A DNA stretch of 64,000 bases from Hufsiella ginkgonis (GTDB lineage Bacteria; Bacteroidota; Bacteroidia; Sphingobacteriales; Sphingobacteriaceae), in assembly GCF_009834915.1 (NCBI RefSeq), contig NZ_WVHS01000002.1, forward strand, positions 744,001-808,000, read 5' to 3'. Shown here one piece after another: positions 3,475 through 17,621 of the stretch. Position 1 is the stretch's first letter. Each line of letters opens with the position of its first letter. The position numbers were made by a program, and so were the translations under genes. Below the pieces are notes generated by a model. It was not told where the DNA came from. It made no database searches and was given only the letters and a program-made list of their open reading frames with translations.

Positions 3475-3798
3475 CTACTTCGTAGCCTGTTCTTTAATTG
3501 TTGTTAATAAGTGGTCAAGCTGGGTAAATTGAGTTTCCCAATTTTGCCTGAATTGGGCTAACCAATGGTCAAACTCCTGCATTTTTTTCGCATTAAAGTG
3601 ATAATAGATCTCCCTGCCGCTATGCTCAGGCTTAATCAATTCGCATTCGTGCAATACTTTAATATGCTTTGATACTGCCTGGCGGGTCATATCAAATTTC
3701 TCAGCCATGGCATTTGGTGTTAATGCCTTAATAGCGATTAACGTTAAAATCGCCCTGCGTGTTGGGTCTGATATGGCCTGGAATATATCTTGTTTCAT
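3475..3798 (-). CDS. ArsR-family winged-helix repressor
   Basis: The 107-residue protein is a compact winged helix: FQAISDPTRRAILTLIAIKALTPNAMAEKFDMTRQAVSKHIKVLHECELI, followed by the wing (EHSGREIYYHFNAKKMQEF) and a C-terminal helix. There is no CxCxxC metal-binding motif in the recognition region, so it belongs to the metal-independent group usually paired with SRPBCC proteins. Its own promoter, just upstream, sits inside a 50-base palindromic repeat, which fits autorepression. It is the first gene of a three-gene operon. Confidence 0.93.
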   Translation of the reverse strand: MKQDIFQAISDPTRRAILTLIAIKALTPNAMAEKFDMTRQAVSKHIKVLHECELIKPEHSGREIYYHFNAKKMQEFDHWLAQFRQNWETQFTQLDHLLTTIKEQATK

Positions 3799-4752: not shown

Positions 4753-5514
4753 TTATAATTCTTTTTCTTTTAAGCGATACCAGGTAATCAGCCATAAACA
4801 GACCGGAACAATTACCCACAACAAAATCGACGTAGCTAAACCGGCAGAATCAGGAAGATATACATACATGTTTTCGCCCTGGTAAGTAAACTGAAAACTA
4901 TCCAGTGGTATATTTGAATCGATGTGGCTTTCACCAGTGATTAGTTTCAACAGCAATGAATTACCGTTAAAAGAGACAAAAAGCCCAATAATGATAATTA
5001 GCAAAGTTTTAAGAAACCGGCTCTTATTAAAATAAACACTACCCAATAGGATGATTGACTGAAAGCCGACGAACGTGAACAAAAATTGGTAAAAGCCATT
5101 TTTAAAAAGGTCAAAGTTTCCCCAGGACGATCCGGCGGGAGCTACGACGGTTACTACTGCTTCCTTTACGCTGTAGAACAAAACGAAATAGGCGGCCAGG
5201 TAAACAACAATGCCGTAAACCAAAGCCATACCCAGTTTGACGGCTGCCGAAGCAGGCAATACCAGGAACCAGGTCCCTTTTTGCTTATTGCCCAGGTCAT
5301 TTAAAATAGCCGACATAAATACACCGCCGCCGCAAAACAATAAGATCAGGAAAATTCCACGCGTAGTATCGCCGTTAAAGCTCGTTTGCCATTGCCAGGC
5401 AAGCAGAAATAAGAAAGCCAGGATGGCCGCGATAGCCGCCGAACCTACCAGCCACGCCTTACGGTTCTCGAACCATTGGCGCTTAAATAGCAGGATGAAA
5501 TGTGTGAAGCTCAT
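4753..5514 (-). CDS. ABC transporter permease (membrane subunit)
   Basis: The 253-residue protein has about six hydrophobic helices (WLVGSAAIAAILAFLFLLAW, GIFLILLFCGGGVFMSAIL, LGMALVYGIVVYLAAYFVLF, FLFTFVGFQSIILLGSVYF, LKTLLIIIIGLFVSF and a last one near 225-245). It has no ATPase motifs. Its ATG overlaps the TAA of the ATP-binding gene by one base (TAATG), a sign of translational coupling. With the ATPase it forms a simple ABC exporter of the kind encoded beside GntR or LytTR regulators in this phylum. The substrate is unknown. Confidence 0.85.
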   Translation of the reverse strand: MSFTHFILLFKRQWFENRKAWLVGSAAIAAILAFLFLLAWQWQTSFNGDTTRGIFLILLFCGGGVFMSAILNDLGNKQKGTWFLVLPASAAVKLGMALVYGIVVYLAAYFVLFYSVKEAVVTVVAPAGSSWGNFDLFKNGFYQFLFTFVGFQSIILLGSVYFNKSRFLKTLLIIIIGLFVSFNGNSLLLKLITGESHIDSNIPLDSFQFTYQGENMYVYLPDSAGLATSILLWVIVPVCLWLITWYRLKEKEL

Positions 5515-6365
5515 TATTTGCCAGGTTTTGTTTGATTAAAAATGGAATTGATCAGTACCGGGTTGCTTAATGTGGCGTTAAACAATATTTCCAGGTCAAT
5601 ATAAGTTTCGGTATGCTGCGGGTTACGGCACATGGCCACCAGGCCGTTGGGTGTTTGTTCTTCATATAAAATATCATCCTGCGGGATATGCCGCTGCTTG
5701 TTGTAAAAGCTCAATTGTTCCATGATCCGGTCTTTTTCTTCATGTAATAAAATGCGGCTGTCGTCCATAATGATAACCGAACTGATTAGATCGTCCAGAT
5801 CACGCACCTGGTGGGTAGAAAGCAGGATAACCTTATCCGGCCTGCTGGCCCGGCTCATGATATTACGGAATTGAACTTTTGAAGGGATATCCAAACCATT
5901 TGTGGGTTCGTCCATTACCAATAGCCGGGTATTAGCGGCCAGCCCAAAAGCGATAAATGCTTTCTTTTTCTGTCCGAAGGACAATTGGTGCAAATTTCCA
6001 TCTATAGGAATATTAAACTCTTTTAAATATTCTTTATAAGCAGAATGACTAAAAGAAGGATAGAAAGGTGCATAAATAGCTAAAAACCGGTTGATGCTTA
6101 ACGAGGGCAAATAGCACTCTTCCGGGATAAAAAACAACTGTTCCAAAAATCCCTGTTCCCGTTTAAAAGGCTGTAAACCGTTTACCTTACAAGTCCCCTT
6201 AAATGGGAAAAGCAAACCGGTAACGGTTTTCATTAGCGTTGATTTACCGGCGCCGTTCTTGCCAAGCAGCCCGTATATCTTCCCGGCTTGCATTTCCAGG
6301 TTCAAGCCGTCAAACAGTACTGTATGTTTGTTATAGCGGTAGATTAAGTTCCTGATCGTGATCAT
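5514..6365 (-). CDS. ABC transporter ATP-binding protein
   Basis: I start at the ATG at 6365 because the family begins there (MITIRNLIYRYNKHTVLFDG); the 40 residues that could be added upstream have no family character. The 283-residue protein has Walker A (GKNGAGKS at 35-42), the signature LSFGQ (128-132), Walker B LLVMDEPTNGLD (148-159) and the H-loop histidine at 185 (STHQ). It drives the permease encoded next. The operon is divergent from a LytS-type kinase gene, and an inverted repeat lies between them. Confidence 0.92.
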   Translation of the reverse strand: MITIRNLIYRYNKHTVLFDGLNLEMQAGKIYGLLGKNGAGKSTLMKTVTGLLFPFKGTCKVNGLQPFKREQGFLEQLFFIPEECYLPSLSINRFLAIYAPFYPSFSHSAYKEYLKEFNIPIDGNLHQLSFGQKKKAFIAFGLAANTRLLVMDEPTNGLDIPSKVQFRNIMSRASRPDKVILLSTHQVRDLDDLISSVIIMDDSRILLHEEKDRIMEQLSFYNKQRHIPQDDILYEEQTPNGLVAMCRNPQHTETYIDLEILFNATLSNPVLINSIFNQTKPGK

Positions 6366-6459
6366 ACCTGTTGATTTTAACGACAAATGGAAGCATAATA
6401 GCCGGTTCCGAAAAAGAAGATCGACCGACGTGGAATAAGGCCGGTTGGAACCTGTATTT

Positions 6460-6505
6460 ACGCCAACTAACCTGCCAATTAACACGCATGGATTTTAGTT
6501 GGCGT
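6460..6505. promoter_or_regulatory. 11-bp perfect inverted repeat in the ABC/LytS divergent region
   Basis: ACGCCAACTAA (6460-6470) and TTAGTTGGCGT (6495-6505) are exact reverse complements separated by 24 bases. The pair lies between the starts of the ABC ATPase (6365) and the sensor kinase (6586). It could be an operator for the LytTR regulator encoded downstream or a transcript hairpin. LytTR proteins usually bind two direct half-sites, so the operator reading is only a guess. Confidence 0.55.
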
Positions 6506-10735: not shown

Positions 10736-13700
10736 TCATTCTGAGCGAAGGCTTTCCACCGGGTTGGTCAAGGCTGCCTTGATGCTGTGATAACTAACGG
10801 TGAGTAAAGTGATGAGCACGGCGCCTGCCCCGGTTAATGCAAATACCCACCAGGACAACCCGGTATGGTAAGTGTAACGCTGCAGCCATTGGTGCATGAA
10901 ATACCAGGAAACAGGGACGGCAATGAGCAGGGCGATCCCCACTAGGGTGACAAAGTCCCTGGATAAGGAACCCCAGATGCTAAACACCGATGCGCCCAGC
11001 ACCTTTCTTATACCGATTTCTTTGACGCGCTGCTCGGCGATAAACGACGCCACCCCGAATAATCCAAGGCAAGATATGAAGATAGCGAGCACAGCGAACA
11101 CGGAGGCCAGCTTTCCGGTACGTTCTTCCGCTATAAACTTTTGCGCATACTCACTATCCGCGAACTTGTAATTGAACGGCGCATCCGGTGCGAACTTTTT
11201 GAAAACCGCATCGATCCTGACGAGCGCATCAGCGACAGGCATACCAGCCCTGAGCTTCAAATTGATCACATTGAATGAGCGTTCGCGATCATCCATCAAA
11301 AATACCACCGGTGTTATAGGATCAAAAGGCGAGGTCATGACCATGTCCTTTACTACACCCAGTACTTTCCAGTCTTTTCCGTGCCATTTAATGGTTTTAC
11401 CTACAGGCTCCTTCAATCCCATCTGCCTGATTGCCGCTTCGTTAAACAAAAAGCCCGACGAATCGCTCAAAAACTGTTTGGAGAAACTCCGGCCTTCTTT
11501 CATTTGCCAGCCCACTACGCTGCCAAAATCGGGGTCTACCAGCACGGTACCGAATACCTCCTGCCGGTTAGGATCCTTTCCTTGCCAGCTCAGGTTATCT
11601 GCCGACGACCAGATGCCGGTCATCGGATTGGAGGAAGCCGATACGCCGGATACTGCGCCGGTCCTTAACAACTCCTCGCGGAAAGCGCTGTATCCCTTGA
11701 TAGCGTTATAAGAGATCGATACCAGGTTGTCCCGGTTATAACCTACCGGCCTGTCCTTGGCAAATTCGATCTGTTTAAAAACAATGATGGTTCCGATGAT
11801 CATCGTAACCGAAACTGAGAATTGCACCACCACGAGAACCTTACGGGGTAATGCAGCTCCAGGGCCCGCCTTGAAAGTGCCTTTTAATACTTTCACCGCA
11901 TTAAAGGACGATAAGTAAAGCGCCGGGTAGCTTCCCGCAAGAAGTCCGGTGAACAGGCAAAAACAAACGCAGGTCAGCCAAACCAGCGGGTTGGTCCAGA
12001 TCAGGTGAAGGTCCTTTCCCGAGACGTCATTGAAAAACGGCAAAGCCAGCCAGGCCAGCAGCATAGCGATCAGGAAGGCTACGGCAACGATCAAAAAGGA
12101 TTCACTTAGGAACTGCGCTACCAGTTGCGCGCGCAAGGAACCGATGGCCTTACGAATGCCCACTTCTTTAGCGCGCTTTTCGCTCCGTGCCGTGCTCAGG
12201 TTCATAAAGTTGATGCAGGCCAGCAACAGCACAAACAGGCCGATGATACCGAAGAGCCATACGAACTGCAGTCGCCCCGCAACGGCAACGCCGTTCCTGA
12301 ATTCATACAAGTGCCATTCGCGCATCGGGGACAGGAAGAGCGCGGGCTTAGTGGCATTCTTTGCATGCTTATACAGGATGTTCTGAATTTTATGCGAAAG
12401 CTGCCGCAAGTCGCTGCCCTGGTTTAACAAGGCATATAGTTGGAATGAACTATTGTACCAGTTATTTATGCCATCGCCGTTCTGCGTGAGGAGAGCGACA
12501 GGCGCGATAAAATTGATATCGCTGAATTGCGTATTCTTTGGCAGGTCCCTGTACACGCCTGTTACCTGCACCAGGAAAGCATCGTTGAGCCTGATCGTTT
12601 GGTTGACCGGATCGGTTTCACCAAATAGTGCCCGGGCCAGTGATTCATTGATTAATATGGCGCCGGGCGTTTTAAGGGAGTTTTTCGATCCCCTGAGCAT
12701 ATGCAGGGTGATGATTTCTGTAATGGCAGGTTCAGCATAACAGCCGTCGCTTGAAAAGGCATGGTTATTATAATTCAGGTTCTGTTCCATGGTAATAACC
12801 GAGGCCACTTGCTTAAAGTCGCCGGCATATTTATCCCGTAGTTCCGCCGATAAGGGCAAAGGCAGCGAGGATTGCGTTACCAGGCCGCCGCCGGCGTTGA
12901 CATTCGCCAAAACCTGTACGATGCGGTCATAATTCTTATTGGACCTATCGAAGGACGCTTCGTCCCATATCCATAAACCGATCAGCATAGCCACAGCCAT
13001 ACCCACTGCGAGGCCGGCAATATTGATCAGGGAAGAAACTTTGTTCCTGGCCGTATTTCTCCAGGCGATCTTTAAATAATTTTTAAACATATGATTGCGG
13101 TTTACCTGGTTCGAAATTACCGCAACGGGCCGTGAATCATATGTCAGGTTATAAGATGGGAGTTGTTTTTTATACTCCGCGGGCGTTTTTCCCGTCAGTT
13201 GTTTGAATGCGCGGTGAAAGGTGCTCGGCGAATTAAAACCTGCGTCATAAGCAATGCCCTGCAAGGTAAGGTGCCCGAAAGCTGCGTCCTGCATCTTGCG
13301 GGCCACCTCGCCTATACGATATTCATTGACAAAATCATTAAAGCTTTTCTTGAGCCCGCTATTAATGATACGGGACAATTCGTGGGTCGTCAATCCGAGC
13401 TTTTCAGCCAGTGAGGTCAAACTGAGTTCCGGGTCTTTGTAATAAGCGCCGTTCTTTACCATTTGCTTAAGCCAGCTGGCTTTATGCTTTAACTCATCCG
13501 GCGATGGTAACTTCAAAAAATAGGGTTCATCTGCGGGCGAGTTCATTTCGGGTCTTAAGATCACCATCCCGGCCGTGCCAATTGCCAGGGCGGCTAAAAG
13601 GAGATATACAGGATAAGGATAGCCGATGATCGTAAAGGGTATCCACAATAGCCATAAAATGGCGAAACCTGTCAACAACTTGTTCAGCCACCGCAATTTT

Positions 13701-14185
13701 AAGCGGTAACGATCGCCCCCGTTAAATTTCAGGTCCCGCGAGAATTCTTTGATCAGCTGATGAGCGGCATACCAATAGACGCAAACAGAAATAAATACCA
13801 GTGATCGGAACAGCGGGATCCGGCCCGGAAAGCCTGGTGTATAAAGAATACCTACGCCTACTGTTATTAACATGGGAAAGAAATGCAACAGGTCTCCGGA
13901 ACGGAATTTATAGTTTGGCCGGGTTATGCTCCCTACATAAAAATAGATGAGCGGACCTAAAGCCAGCGAAAATGGCGGTAGTTCCGGGTGAATGCCAGTG
14001 TACAAGGCCCGGATCATCCCGAGGACGGTAACCATGAGAATAAAACCAAGGACCCGGTTGGCGGCCTTGTTACCTTTTTGGATCAGTAACAATAGCAGGC
14101 TGAAAGCAAGCCCGACGAATATCGTTCCCAGCAAAGCCAGCTCATAAAGGTCGGTATGCAAGTTATCTACTTTCAAGTTATGCAC
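10736..14185 (-). CDS. Fusion: membrane-bound AraC regulator joined to MacB/FtsX-like ABC permease
   Basis: This 1149-residue protein joins two complete modules in one frame. Residues 1-225 hold about seven membrane helices. Residues 240-345 are an AraC-type double helix-turn-helix (LSLTSLAEKLGLTTHELSRIINSGLKKSFNDFVNEYRI, then GIAYDAGFNSPSTFHRAFKQLTGKTPAEYKKQ). After a 20-odd residue linker, residue 366 is a Met that starts a typical MacB-like permease of 784 residues (MFKNYLKIAWRNTARNKVSSLINIAGLAVGM). That part has a periplasmic MacB_PCD region and four membrane helices with the FtsX motifs (NLSTARSEKRAKEVGIRKAIGS and VKEIGIRKVLGASV). The start is GTG, because no ATG is near and a stop codon precedes it. 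A TAATTTTG box lies 18 bases upstream. No partner ATPase gene is adjacent. Confidence 0.85.
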   Translation of the reverse strand: MHNLKVDNLHTDLYELALLGTIFVGLAFSLLLLLIQKGNKAANRVLGFILMVTVLGMIRALYTGIHPELPPFSLALGPLIYFYVGSITRPNYKFRSGDLLHFFPMLITVGVGILYTPGFPGRIPLFRSLVFISVCVYWYAAHQLIKEFSRDLKFNGGDRYRLKLRWLNKLLTGFAILWLLWIPFTIIGYPYPVYLLLAALAIGTAGMVILRPEMNSPADEPYFLKLPSPDELKHKASWLKQMVKNGAYYKDPELSLTSLAEKLGLTTHELSRIINSGLKKSFNDFVNEYRIGEVARKMQDAAFGHLTLQGIAYDAGFNSPSTFHRAFKQLTGKTPAEYKKQLPSYNLTYDSRPVAVISNQVNRNHMFKNYLKIAWRNTARNKVSSLINIAGLAVGMAVAMLIGLWIWDEASFDRSNKNYDRIVQVLANVNAGGGLVTQSSLPLPLSAELRDKYAGDFKQVASVITMEQNLNYNNHAFSSDGCYAEPAITEIITLHMLRGSKNSLKTPGAILINESLARALFGETDPVNQTIRLNDAFLVQVTGVYRDLPKNTQFSDINFIAPVALLTQNGDGINNWYNSSFQLYALLNQGSDLRQLSHKIQNILYKHAKNATKPALFLSPMREWHLYEFRNGVAVAGRLQFVWLFGIIGLFVLLLACINFMNLSTARSEKRAKEVGIRKAIGSLRAQLVAQFLSESFLIVAVAFLIAMLLAWLALPFFNDVSGKDLHLIWTNPLVWLTCVCFCLFTGLLAGSYPALYLSSFNAVKVLKGTFKAGPGAALPRKVLVVVQFSVSVTMIIGTIIVFKQIEFAKDRPVGYNRDNLVSISYNAIKGYSAFREELLRTGAVSGVSASSNPMTGIWSSADNLSWQGKDPNRQEVFGTVLVDPDFGSVVGWQMKEGRSFSKQFLSDSSGFLFNEAAIRQMGLKEPVGKTIKWHGKDWKVLGVVKDMVMTSPFDPITPVVFLMDDRERSFNVINLKLRAGMPVADALVRIDAVFKKFAPDAPFNYKFADSEYAQKFIAEERTGKLASVFAVLAIFISCLGLFGVASFIAEQRVKEIGIRKVLGASVFSIWGSLSRDFVTLVGIALLIAVPVSWYFMHQWLQRYTYHTGLSWWVFALTGAGAVLITLLTVSYHSIKAALTNPVESLRSE

Positions 14186-14265
14186 TTAGGTCAATTCATG
14201 TTCCAAAATTACAAGCAATTAATAAGCAGGTAGTTATATAATAATGATTATGTATTGTGTAACAG

Positions 14266-14289
14266 AACCGAACATGGGCATGTCCGGTT
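14266..14289. promoter_or_regulatory. 24-base palindrome upstream of the AraC-MacB fusion gene
   Basis: AACCGAACATG and CATGTCCGGTT flank two Gs, with 10 of 11 positions paired. It lies about 80 bases upstream of the fusion gene's GTG start and about 330 upstream of the VioB-like operon. The symmetry suggests a binding site for a dimeric regulator or a small hairpin. Which gene it serves is unknown. Confidence 0.45.
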
Positions 14290-14338
14290 TTGAATATTAA
14301 ATGATCGTCCGGAATCAGCTATACTGATATTATTTGTA

Positions 14339-14620: not shown

Positions 14621-16570
14621 ATGTCATATCTCCATTCACCGTATTTTGTTTTCACGGGCGATTTTGTTTCAGACGTATCTACGGTCAACAATGACCCGGC
14701 GCACTATAATAACGCTACGTTCGCAAGTTCATTTCAAACACCCGGATCAGGCAATCTCAATGGATGGTGGAACCCTGAGGGCGGCGCCACATTCGGATTT
14801 CAGAACTGCCGGATGAAGCAGCTATCGAGTAAAGAAGGTACCGGGGATCCGGATTTCCAGGACCCTATCTTTGGCGCTATAATAAGCAGCGCGGCGGGCA
14901 GAAACTCGGGCAAAATGGTAGACCTCGATCCGCAGTGGCAAATGAGTTCACAGCTTTGGGGAGTCAGCGTTTTCATTTCTACCAGTGACGGCGAGTTGCT
15001 TGTGTCCGGGAACATCAAGGCGACCGGGTTTCGCGACTTGCAGATGAGGCAACAAAAGGGTGCGCGCGTTAACGGGCAACCTTTGGGCGGTATGTGGACT
15101 TCCGTTCTGGAAAATGTGGTGTGGGGCGATAGGGCCGCCGATTCACCGTTTTTACAGCAACTGAAGGCAGCCTCGGCTTCAAATAAACTGAGTATTAACC
15201 TTAGCGGTTACGGGTATTACTACAACCATGCTGCTGACGGGCGATTTTCTCTCGGGCGTATTATCGGGACAATTGGGCCGTGGCTTGAAAATGAACCGGA
15301 AATACTTTCACCTTACCGCAGACTATACGGAATAATACAAGACGCCAATCAGAATACCTTTTTCAATTTTTCGAACTTTCTGTTCGAGCAGCAGCAACAA
15401 AGGTTAACCGTCGACTTTAGCGGTTCATTTCCGGTGATCGACTCCATAGGTACTATAGGTCTCAACAGTAAGCTCTACATGGCTGTCAGTAAAGTGCCTG
15501 TAACTATGCCTGCGCCGGGTTCCGCGAATGTAATACTAGCCTCCGACGAGATTATCATGATCGGCCAGATCAATTACGATGCCGCGTGGCTTAATAATAC
15601 CGGCGGGATTGCGTCATTCACTGACCTGCCCGATGACGTTACACATGCGCTTGCCAATAACCAGCTGCTCTTGTTAACCCCTGGTAGCGGCGGAAATTAC
15701 ATCGTTATCGCACGCGAAGCTATTGATGGACTGGTACTGCGAGCCGACGATTTCGTTTGCCGCATCGATTGTGGTCAAACGGTACCGGTAAATCTGTATG
15801 CGTATCAATGGGGGGAACCGCTGCAAAATGCCGTGATAACCATCAACATGGACCCCGAAGGCGGAGGAGCTGCAGCGGGATCTCAGTCGCAGAACCCACT
15901 CATCCCGGTTTGTGACATACCTAATTACAACACTCCCGTTGAAGGTATAAGTTTCTCCCAAACGATCAATACAGATGCGAATGGTTACGCCAGCCTGGAT
16001 ATTACCGGTAACAATGTGAATAACCCCAGGGGATATATCGACGGCCAAATTTACACCTTAAGTTATGCACTTTCCGGTCAGCAGCCAGATCCTGCAGCTC
16101 CGGGAAATATAGTTTCCGACGGGATCTTCATCCACGTAAGGAATTATTTCGAAGCCCCGGCCAATCCGTCGTGGAGCGACATATCAGAGATTATGGTGCA
16201 GTTTGCCAATTTATACCCTATTATGAGTAAGTACTTTTTGAATTTTGCAGATCCCCTGGCGCTGTTTTCAAAAAAGGAGATCCTCAAGTTTGCCTTCACC
16301 CGCGATATTACCGATCCTGTTTATATGCCGGTGACCCGCGATCTGTCTGAAGCAAAGAAGCAGGCCATACTCAACTGGCTGTCTGCCGATCAGCCGGTTG
16401 TTGATATAGGGCTTGCGGGAGCAATGGCTGCAGAGCCTGCAAAAATCCGGAATGTCCCGGAGGCTGGTGCACCGATCCCCGAAAAACAGGCAAAGCTAAA
16501 GCGTGCGGTGATGATGAAAAATGGCGCGCTGCTGTCTTATCCTGAAATTGATAACCTGTTTGAATACTAA
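14621..16570 (+). CDS. VioB/RebD-like protein, N-terminal half as a separate gene
   Basis: The 649-residue protein opens like the VioB/RebD family (SYLHSPYFVFTGDFVSDVSTVNNDPAHY; VioB begins with a similar FPRIHFRGW-type segment). Near its end it carries a segment resembling the middle of VioB: FANLYPIMSKYFLNFADPL (about 527-545) and YMPVTRDLSEAKKQAILNWL (about 567-586), matching VYPFMSDKVFSLADR and YYMPSTRELSAPKA in VioB as I recall them. VioB and RebD couple two oxidised tryptophan units in violacein and indolocarbazole synthesis. In those proteins the ferritin-like C-terminal half is fused on; here it is the next gene. There is no tryptophan oxidase nearby, so the substrate is unknown and the role is inferred only from architecture. 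No signal peptide is visible. Confidence 0.7.
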   Translation: MSYLHSPYFVFTGDFVSDVSTVNNDPAHYNNATFASSFQTPGSGNLNGWWNPEGGATFGFQNCRMKQLSSKEGTGDPDFQDPIFGAIISSAAGRNSGKMVDLDPQWQMSSQLWGVSVFISTSDGELLVSGNIKATGFRDLQMRQQKGARVNGQPLGGMWTSVLENVVWGDRAADSPFLQQLKAASASNKLSINLSGYGYYYNHAADGRFSLGRIIGTIGPWLENEPEILSPYRRLYGIIQDANQNTFFNFSNFLFEQQQQRLTVDFSGSFPVIDSIGTIGLNSKLYMAVSKVPVTMPAPGSANVILASDEIIMIGQINYDAAWLNNTGGIASFTDLPDDVTHALANNQLLLLTPGSGGNYIVIAREAIDGLVLRADDFVCRIDCGQTVPVNLYAYQWGEPLQNAVITINMDPEGGGAAAGSQSQNPLIPVCDIPNYNTPVEGISFSQTINTDANGYASLDITGNNVNNPRGYIDGQIYTLSYALSGQQPDPAAPGNIVSDGIFIHVRNYFEAPANPSWSDISEIMVQFANLYPIMSKYFLNFADPLALFSKKEILKFAFTRDITDPVYMPVTRDLSEAKKQAILNWLSADQPVVDIGLAGAMAAEPAKIRNVPEAGAPIPEKQAKLKRAVMMKNGALLSYPEIDNLFEY

Positions 16571-16580
16571 CATAAACATC

Positions 16581-17621
16581 ATGCTTAAAATAGAACCGAA
16601 ATATATAGTGGAGGCCGTATCTGCATCAAGCCTCGAAGAGCTATTTCCGCTTGTTCAGAATGCTATAGAACTGGAGCACTCCACTATACCTCCATACCTC
16701 ACGGCGATGTTCTCATTTAAACCGAATACCGGTAATGAAATAAGAGCAATAATTCACTCCATCGTCATCGAAGAAATGTTGCATATGTCCATTGCCGCCA
16801 ATATACTGAATGCCCTCGGCGGGAGGCCGCTTATCAACGACAAGTCTTTTATTCCCGAATATCCCACCCCGTTGCCTATGGGTATAGGCAGTAGCGAAGG
16901 GCTCATCGTAGGGCTCAACCCGTTCAGTATAAATATCGTGCAGAGCATTTTCATGGAGATCGAAGAGCCGGAGAATCCTATCCCTCCAACCCTTATGCTG
17001 GCGGCTGAGGCAAGTCCTGAATATGCTACCATAGGACAGTTTTATATGACGTTAAGCGATAAGATACAGCACCTTGCCCCGGATAACCTGCCCGGCGATC
17101 CTGCGAAGCAGGTTACCTCAAACTTTTTTAGTAGCAGTGAGCTCTTTCCCATCCTCACCAAAGAAGATGCGGTCAACGCCATCAATATCATCGTAGAGCA
17201 AGGAGAAGGTACTACCCATTCGCCCCTGGATCCCGAAAAGGAACTCGCGCATTATTACAAGTTTGCGGAAATCGTTGCAGGAAAGAAGGCTGTCGTTCGT
17301 AACGATGGCTCTTATTCGTTTTCCGGTGATCCGATACCGTTCGATCCGAATGACGTTTATCCCGTTTATTCAAATACAAAGGCAAAGATGCTTATCCCGG
17401 GAACTGAGGAACGACGGCGTGTTGACGAATTCAATAATGCCTACAGTTCGCTCCTTAACGGGTTGCACCGTACGTTCAATGGCGAACCTGGCTATCTCGA
17501 CAATACGATCGGTGTTATGTTCGACCTGAAGTTGCTGTCTGAGAAGTTGAACGCAACACCCTTCCCGGGTCAGCAGGGCTATACGATCGGTGCGCCTTAT
17601 GAGTGGTTTCCACAGCCATAA
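16581..17621 (+). CDS. Ferritin-like protein, VioB/RebD C-terminal domain type
   Basis: The start is the ATG at 16581 (MLKIEPKYIVEAVSASSLEELFP), 10 bases after the previous stop; an earlier in-frame ATG lies inside the upstream gene. The 346-residue protein has the ferritin-like helical bundle found at the C terminus of VioB (Pfam Ferritin-like, PF12902). The metal-binding pattern is visible as IELEHSTIPPYL (Glu32, His33) and HSIVIEEMLHMSIAANILNALGG (Glu64, Glu65, His68). The end (AKMLIPGTEERRRVDEFNNAYSSLLNGLHRTFNG) is a long helical region as in the family. It is almost certainly the partner of the gene before it. Confidence 0.85.
   Translation: MLKIEPKYIVEAVSASSLEELFPLVQNAIELEHSTIPPYLTAMFSFKPNTGNEIRAIIHSIVIEEMLHMSIAANILNALGGRPLINDKSFIPEYPTPLPMGIGSSEGLIVGLNPFSINIVQSIFMEIEEPENPIPPTLMLAAEASPEYATIGQFYMTLSDKIQHLAPDNLPGDPAKQVTSNFFSSSELFPILTKEDAVNAINIIVEQGEGTTHSPLDPEKELAHYYKFAEIVAGKKAVVRNDGSYSFSGDPIPFDPNDVYPVYSNTKAKMLIPGTEERRRVDEFNNAYSSLLNGLHRTFNGEPGYLDNTIGVMFDLKLLSEKLNATPFPGQQGYTIGAPYEWFPQP

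Follow-up and report, generated by a model that had tools for sequence, protein, structure and literature searches.

An in-frame fusion of a membrane AraC-type regulator with a MacB/FtsX-type permease in Hufsiella ginkgonis and its relatives

A precedent for joining a transporter to a signalling domain is CbrA, in which an SLC5 transporter and a histidine kinase share one chain (PMC7096432, PMC13022988). For communication between a permease and a kinase the precedent is the Bce module, where cycling of BceAB has been proposed to drive the kinase BceS (PMC10314905). A literature search, mostly of open-access journals, returned no description of a one-component regulator fused to an ABC-type permease. 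The ATPase of the E. coli permease YbbP is a separate protein, YbbA.

The protein described here, encoded by Hufsiella ginkgonis, resembles several known proteins in one or other of its parts. Like YbbP (of YbbAP; PDB 9ge6), it contains a single-chain, two-lobed FtsX-type permease, but YbbP has no regulator head. The duplicated orphan permeases (ADOP, TIGR03434) and the "permease prefix" permeases share with it duplicated FtsX and MacB_PCD domains, an ATPase-free chain and membership in large paralogous families. As for ADOP, no ATPase gene is adjacent; unlike them it bears a 7TM-AraC head, and its TIGR03434 score (280.7 bits) is below the cut-off of 622.3 bits. Bacteroidota also have standalone membrane AraC regulators (L135 and L136, for example) with the same layout of seven helices and HTH; these are 33-37% identical to its head, but they end after the HTH with no permease.

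Architecture and conservation of the fused gene

The window analyzed is a stretch of 64,000 nucleotides, to which the coordinates of this gene refer. The gene lies at 10736-14185 on the minus strand, as do all its features given below, and is an open frame of 1149 codons running from a GTG at 14185 to a stop at 10736-10738; the plus strand across the same stretch has many stops. The open frame, Pfam and intact relatives all mark it as a membrane AraC-type regulator followed by a double-FtsX/MacB-type permease (1149 aa). A sequence-only reading had proposed this single-frame joining, with seven helices and an AraC HTH before Met366 and a whole permease from there onward, and Pfam and AlphaFold2 bear out both parts of the proposal. 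The sensor part of the head has seven predicted TM helices (residues 13-210; 13556-14149; pLDDT of the head model 84.8). An HTH_18 domain follows at residues 259-341 (13163-13411; 62 bits against a cut-off of 33.6), the AraC-type two-HTH domain that places the head in the AraC/XylS family, and in a structure search the best matches of the head model were AraC-type DNA-binding domains. A rhodopsin- or GPCR-like head was rejected, the fold matches being weak and non-significant (best about E 0.02). A linker of 24 aa (residues 342-365; 13091-13162) leads to Met366, encoded by the ATG at 13090-13088, and to the permease module (residues 366-1149; 10739-13090), which has two halves, each of four TM helices and a periplasmic domain. 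Pfam places a MacB-like periplasmic core domain (MacB_PCD) at residues 385-602 (12380-13033; 106 bits) and FtsX at residues 647-762 (87.5 bits), and a second copy of each is present.

The AlphaFold2 model, built from a 51-sequence alignment, has seven membrane-length helices (13-210), the HTH (229-338), a disordered linker (about 341-358; pLDDT about 36) and two permease halves, each with four TM helices and one periplasmic domain. Its mean pLDDT is 78 and its pTM 0.57, with the placement of head relative to permease uncertain. Read from the sequence, positive residues occur in those loops of the head that an external N terminus would leave on the cytoplasmic side, an orientation that would put the HTH inside, directly ahead of the first permease helix. 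Seven TM helices, then HTH, then permease is thus predicted to be a workable topology. Automatic annotation can misname such fusions as plain permeases or plain regulators. The divergent neighbours at 14621-17621 of the window are, by their appearance, presumably a VioB/ferritin-like pair.

To see how widely the architecture occurs we surveyed related genomes, as the sequence-only reading had advised. Intact fused frames were found in 57 of 400 genomes of the same family, across five genera, counting genomes with at least one frame of more than 1100 aa that covers head and permease. Named Mucilaginibacter genomes contain full-length relatives at 66-77% identity. The 395 genomes sampled over the phylum outside the family had broken or standalone forms but no intact fusion; a full-length copy on a Spirosoma plasmid is broken by one stop. 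As many as 13 fused genes are encoded in one genome, and in other genomes they stand in tandem rows. H. ginkgonis has one, together with many standalone permeases.

Over 135 nt round the junction the fused frame is stop-free in all 60 non-redundant fused genes, while the two other forward frames have about three stops per sequence, which excludes an open frame by chance. Insertions and deletions in the linker preserve the frame. Broken copies do exist (L103 and L173-L178). One of them, L173 of genome G408, has a linker frameshift at about 3755-3782 that parts head from permease, either a natural split or an assembly error, and is the only linker split among the copies examined. That split, and the existence of both standalone 7TM-AraC regulators and standalone permeases, are what could be said for an accident in which a lost stop codon or a sequencing error fused two adjacent genes. 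The sequence-only reading had allowed for recent stop loss between neighbours, and it held that an error near 13090, or relatives with a stop and a separate ATG, would undo the fusion. The relatives have the same open fusion, kept in 57 genomes and in 60 non-redundant genes with a conserved linker, and we regard the accident as refuted, with next to no chance of being right. That the fusion is conserved and modular is strongly supported.

Exchange of heads and permeases

In a tree of 165 permeases, the 60 fused ones form 19 clades interspersed with standalone ones, and their grouping as a single clade was rejected (43 sequences; AU p = 6.7e-45). The regulator heads form one clade, except for two rows that are broken fusions. 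Pairwise comparison gave the same picture gene by gene. The permeases of L034 and L036 are 91% identical and their 7TM parts 24%; for L032 and L107 the values are 92% and 32%. In the L123 tandem pair head and linker are 97-100% identical in DNA, and past residue 370 or so the identity falls to about 50%. Where like heads precede different permeases, similarity spans, in the largest group of head-sharing pairs, from about -1350, just upstream of the palindrome described below, to +20 to +39 beyond the ATG of the permease. Exactly from start codon to stop, L154 (fused) and L152 (standalone) have permeases that are 83% identical, and in L152 a head module is located after the standalone permease. 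Four further fused and standalone pairs were compared; in three of them homology sets in at the ATG, in the fourth 63 nt past it.

The aligned genes thus place the homology breakpoint at the permease start codon or just after it. One head family, 19 permease clades and a break at this point show, at the level of sequence, that many different, unrelated permeases have come to stand in frame behind a promoter-plus-head module. Shuffling of heads among permeases is strongly supported. With the same switch, its own promoter and its control site attached in frame to so many different permeases, the fusions look like a modular sensor family, not an accident. Homologous recombination probably exchanges heads and permeases, both at the start sequence common to these permeases (about MFKNYLKIAWR), where it would keep the frame, and within the conserved HTH and linker DNA; recombination at the shared start would be the simplest mechanism. 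Repeated joining at the start codon is an unusually clear example of gene-fusion evolution. The natural swaps, with one head on many permeases and one permease under several heads, are ready chimeras showing which half sets the signal.

Free swapping of permeases under one head is also expected if no specific interface is needed, as it would be if recombination merely kept joining head and permease and each acted alone. Two observations speak against this reading: the linker has retained its frame and most of its length over deep divergence, and a private palindrome goes with the fused form. We consider such a fusion without functional coupling unlikely.

Several features around these genes were noted. 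No gene family recurred beyond eight fused loci, so that shared neighbours did not define a regulon. At L032 (4215-10015) and L101 (5977-11876) the fused gene lies between ECF-sigma-like and FecR-like genes in a SusC-type operon, the names being given by sequence look. Between tandem standalone permeases of relatives (L141-L147, L155 and L156) the intergenic DNA holds repeats such as CCAATGAACTAATGAACAATTGAACTAATGAAC, perhaps a recombination aid. A conserved element of about 110 nt, AAGAGCTTGGAT..GATCTGAGATTTAGTTGA..GTGCGTTCCGGGGTGAGATACGGAACGCATTTTTT, terminator- or small-RNA-like in appearance and with no Rfam match, lies downstream of the fused genes L032, L035, L037, L104, L113, L114, L133, L153 and L154 and also occurs in L161-L171. 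It was rejected as part of a mobile unit, as it also lies beside unrelated genes and is absent from the H. ginkgonis genome.

The upstream palindrome and the linker DNA

The palindrome CAAAACCGGACATGCCCATGTTCGGTTCTGTTACA lies at 14258-14292, 73 bp upstream of the GTG. Most fused genes are preceded by a family form, CAAAACCGnAC-n8-GTnCGGTTTTGTTACA. In the H. ginkgonis genome a strict pattern matches exactly once, at 14259-14289 ahead of the fused gene, and all five matches in genome G301 are within its fused-gene row. A reversed control pattern had none. By weight matrix 43 of 60 fused genes outscored the best of 105 standalone permease upstreams (0/105), a count that is partly in-sample, 22 of the 60 having been used to build the matrix; the other 17, including L036, L123 and L128, were below threshold. 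Stronger evidence for an operator comes from where the palindrome stands with respect to the head and from the fact that standalone permeases lack it upstream. The palindrome is a candidate and likely autoregulatory operator, an assignment that these comparisons support well, though it could serve another regulator instead. The Bacteroidota -7 box has the consensus TAnnTTTG. TAATTTTG, at 14204-14211 within a conserved upstream block (14191-14214), fits it perfectly, and the promoter block TTnnTAATTTGGAACA is conserved after the palindrome upstream of fused genes.

The sequence-only reading had suggested checking conservation of the linker past residue 345, and it is indeed conserved, in frame, in most of its length and at the nucleotide level, where its constraint is the strongest within the gene. 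Codon identity at matched amino acids is the highest of the whole gene. Where the amino acids differ, the third base is identical at a frequency of 0.486 in the linker, compared with 0.282 +/- 0.033 and a maximum of 0.398 in 1046 other windows, and at several third positions 45-47 of 47 sequences share the base despite two to six different amino acids. Three elements stand out. E1, CCATCTTATAACCTG at 13145-13159, has the family form CCAnnTTATAAYnTG. E2, GTAATTTCG at 13112-13120, occurs in the family as GTAATTTCG or GTAATATTG, resembles a -7 box with one mismatch, and keeps a fixed spacing to E1. E3, with the family form TTAAACCGCAAT..ATG at 13088-13102, includes the ATG of Met366, invariant in the family and a candidate internal start.

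That the linker DNA is constrained beyond its protein meaning is well supported by these alignments. This constraint and the invariant Met366 favour the reading that the permease probably has an internal promoter or start within the linker. Recombination bias could be an added cause but leaves the alternation of variable and fixed positions unexplained. Other candidates were rejected. For an overlapping gene, the two other forward frames are closed in 60/60 and the reverse frames mostly closed. For an RNA hairpin, ACCAC/GTGGT arms covaried by eye, but no stem placement clearly beat shuffled partners; an Rfam search gave no match. The linker is not an old 5' leader of standalone permeases, as its motif is absent from their upstream DNA.

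An internal promoter and a Met366 start could also mean that the gene makes two products, mostly a separate permease, with the fusion serving co-regulation and no allosteric coupling. The nucleotide constraint, the invariant Met366, the promoter-like E2 box and a permease whose start is the same as in standalone relatives fit this account. Yet the fused frame alone among the forward frames is open in every gene of the 60, linker indels keep it, and standalone permeases have no linker motif upstream. We find this account rather improbable. It is also conceivable, though less likely than not, that a regulatory module of palindrome, promoter, 7TM sensor, HTH and linker repeatedly captures ABC permeases in frame exactly at their start codon, the linker DNA being a built-in functional element (an internal promoter or start, or a site favouring recombination). 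Such a recombining system would generate one-chain sensor-permease-regulators, each with its own operator.

The permease half, its coupling to the regulator, and known systems

MacB_PCD and FtsX domains with a matching fold place the permease in the MacB/FtsX (type VII) superfamily. In Foldseek the permease half was closest to E. coli YbbP (PDB 9ge6, E 9.7e-20), then MacB, LolCDE and BceB. Pfam found no ABC ATPase domain (PF00005) in the fused protein. The macrolide exporter MacB has its ATPase in the same chain, so the name applies here as a family resemblance only. Two coupling-type motifs, KE(V/I)G(V/I)RK, are both conserved and align with the TREIGIRMAVG stretch of MacB. The first, R..KEVGVRK..G at residues 671-682 (12140-12175), was aligned with the MacB sequence TERTREIGIRMAVG; the second is R..KEIGIRKVLG at residues 1053-1064 (10994-11029). 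With both conserved, the permease may still be functional, with its ATPase provided in trans.

No LolD/MacB-type ATPase gene was found near the fused gene, and the permease may therefore be inactive. The nearest ABC_tran, at 5514-6485, belongs to a different transporter type, and across the fused loci there is one close LolD-like gene, 4.7 kb off in L130. In the H. ginkgonis genome, a LolD-like ATPase precedes one standalone permease array and could serve the fused permease in trans. Standalone MacB/FtsX-type permeases form long tandem rows in this same genome (G000) at C1:384090-401151 and C1:1414195-1429564 (L150 and L151), and the rows of relatives are longer; at C1:391411-393771 a permease lies within a 1638-codon open frame, longer than needed.

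The ATPase-free chain and the lack of an adjoining LolD/MacB-type gene are what would be expected of a receptor that never transports, its orphan permease half being a passive periplasmic scaffold for binding a ligand. The retained coupling-type motifs argue against such a receptor, as does the LolD-like ATPase by the standalone array, and we think it fairly unlikely. We lean, by a little, towards an autoregulated one-chain sensor-permease-regulator with a complete type VII (MacB/FtsX/YbbP-like) permease and no ATPase of its own. In such a protein the HTH would be cytoplasmic, flanked by the seventh TM helix and the first helix of the permease, and dimers bound to the palindrome would regulate the promoter of their own gene. 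Binding of a ligand by the 7TM bundle or by the periplasmic permease domains would alter DNA binding; alternatively, the input would come from the permease as it cycles between conformations, powered by an ATPase acting in trans, as proposed for BceAB and BceS. The linker DNA would also yield some free permease through an internal promoter or the Met366 start. Coupling of permease and HTH, which the sequence-only reading had put forward too, is something we infer. If the parts are coupled, the state of a transporter would pass directly to a promoter, and flux sensing, a long-argued question, could be studied in one protein and one candidate operator.

Like CbrA-type transceptors, the fused protein carries a transporter-type membrane domain and an output domain in one polypeptide. 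It differs from CbrA in that its output is a DNA-binding AraC HTH, as in one-component regulators, its transporter is an ABC type VII permease and the regulator comes first. With Bce modules it would share autoregulation and an FtsX-superfamily permease whose state a membrane-bound regulator is expected to read. Bce systems are complexes of separate permease, ATPase and kinase proteins with a phosphorelay, whereas this is one chain with no kinase domain in Pfam and no adjacent ATPase. By analogy, the fused protein may work like a transceptor, or like a Bce-type sensing pair fused into one chain, but with predicted direct binding to DNA.
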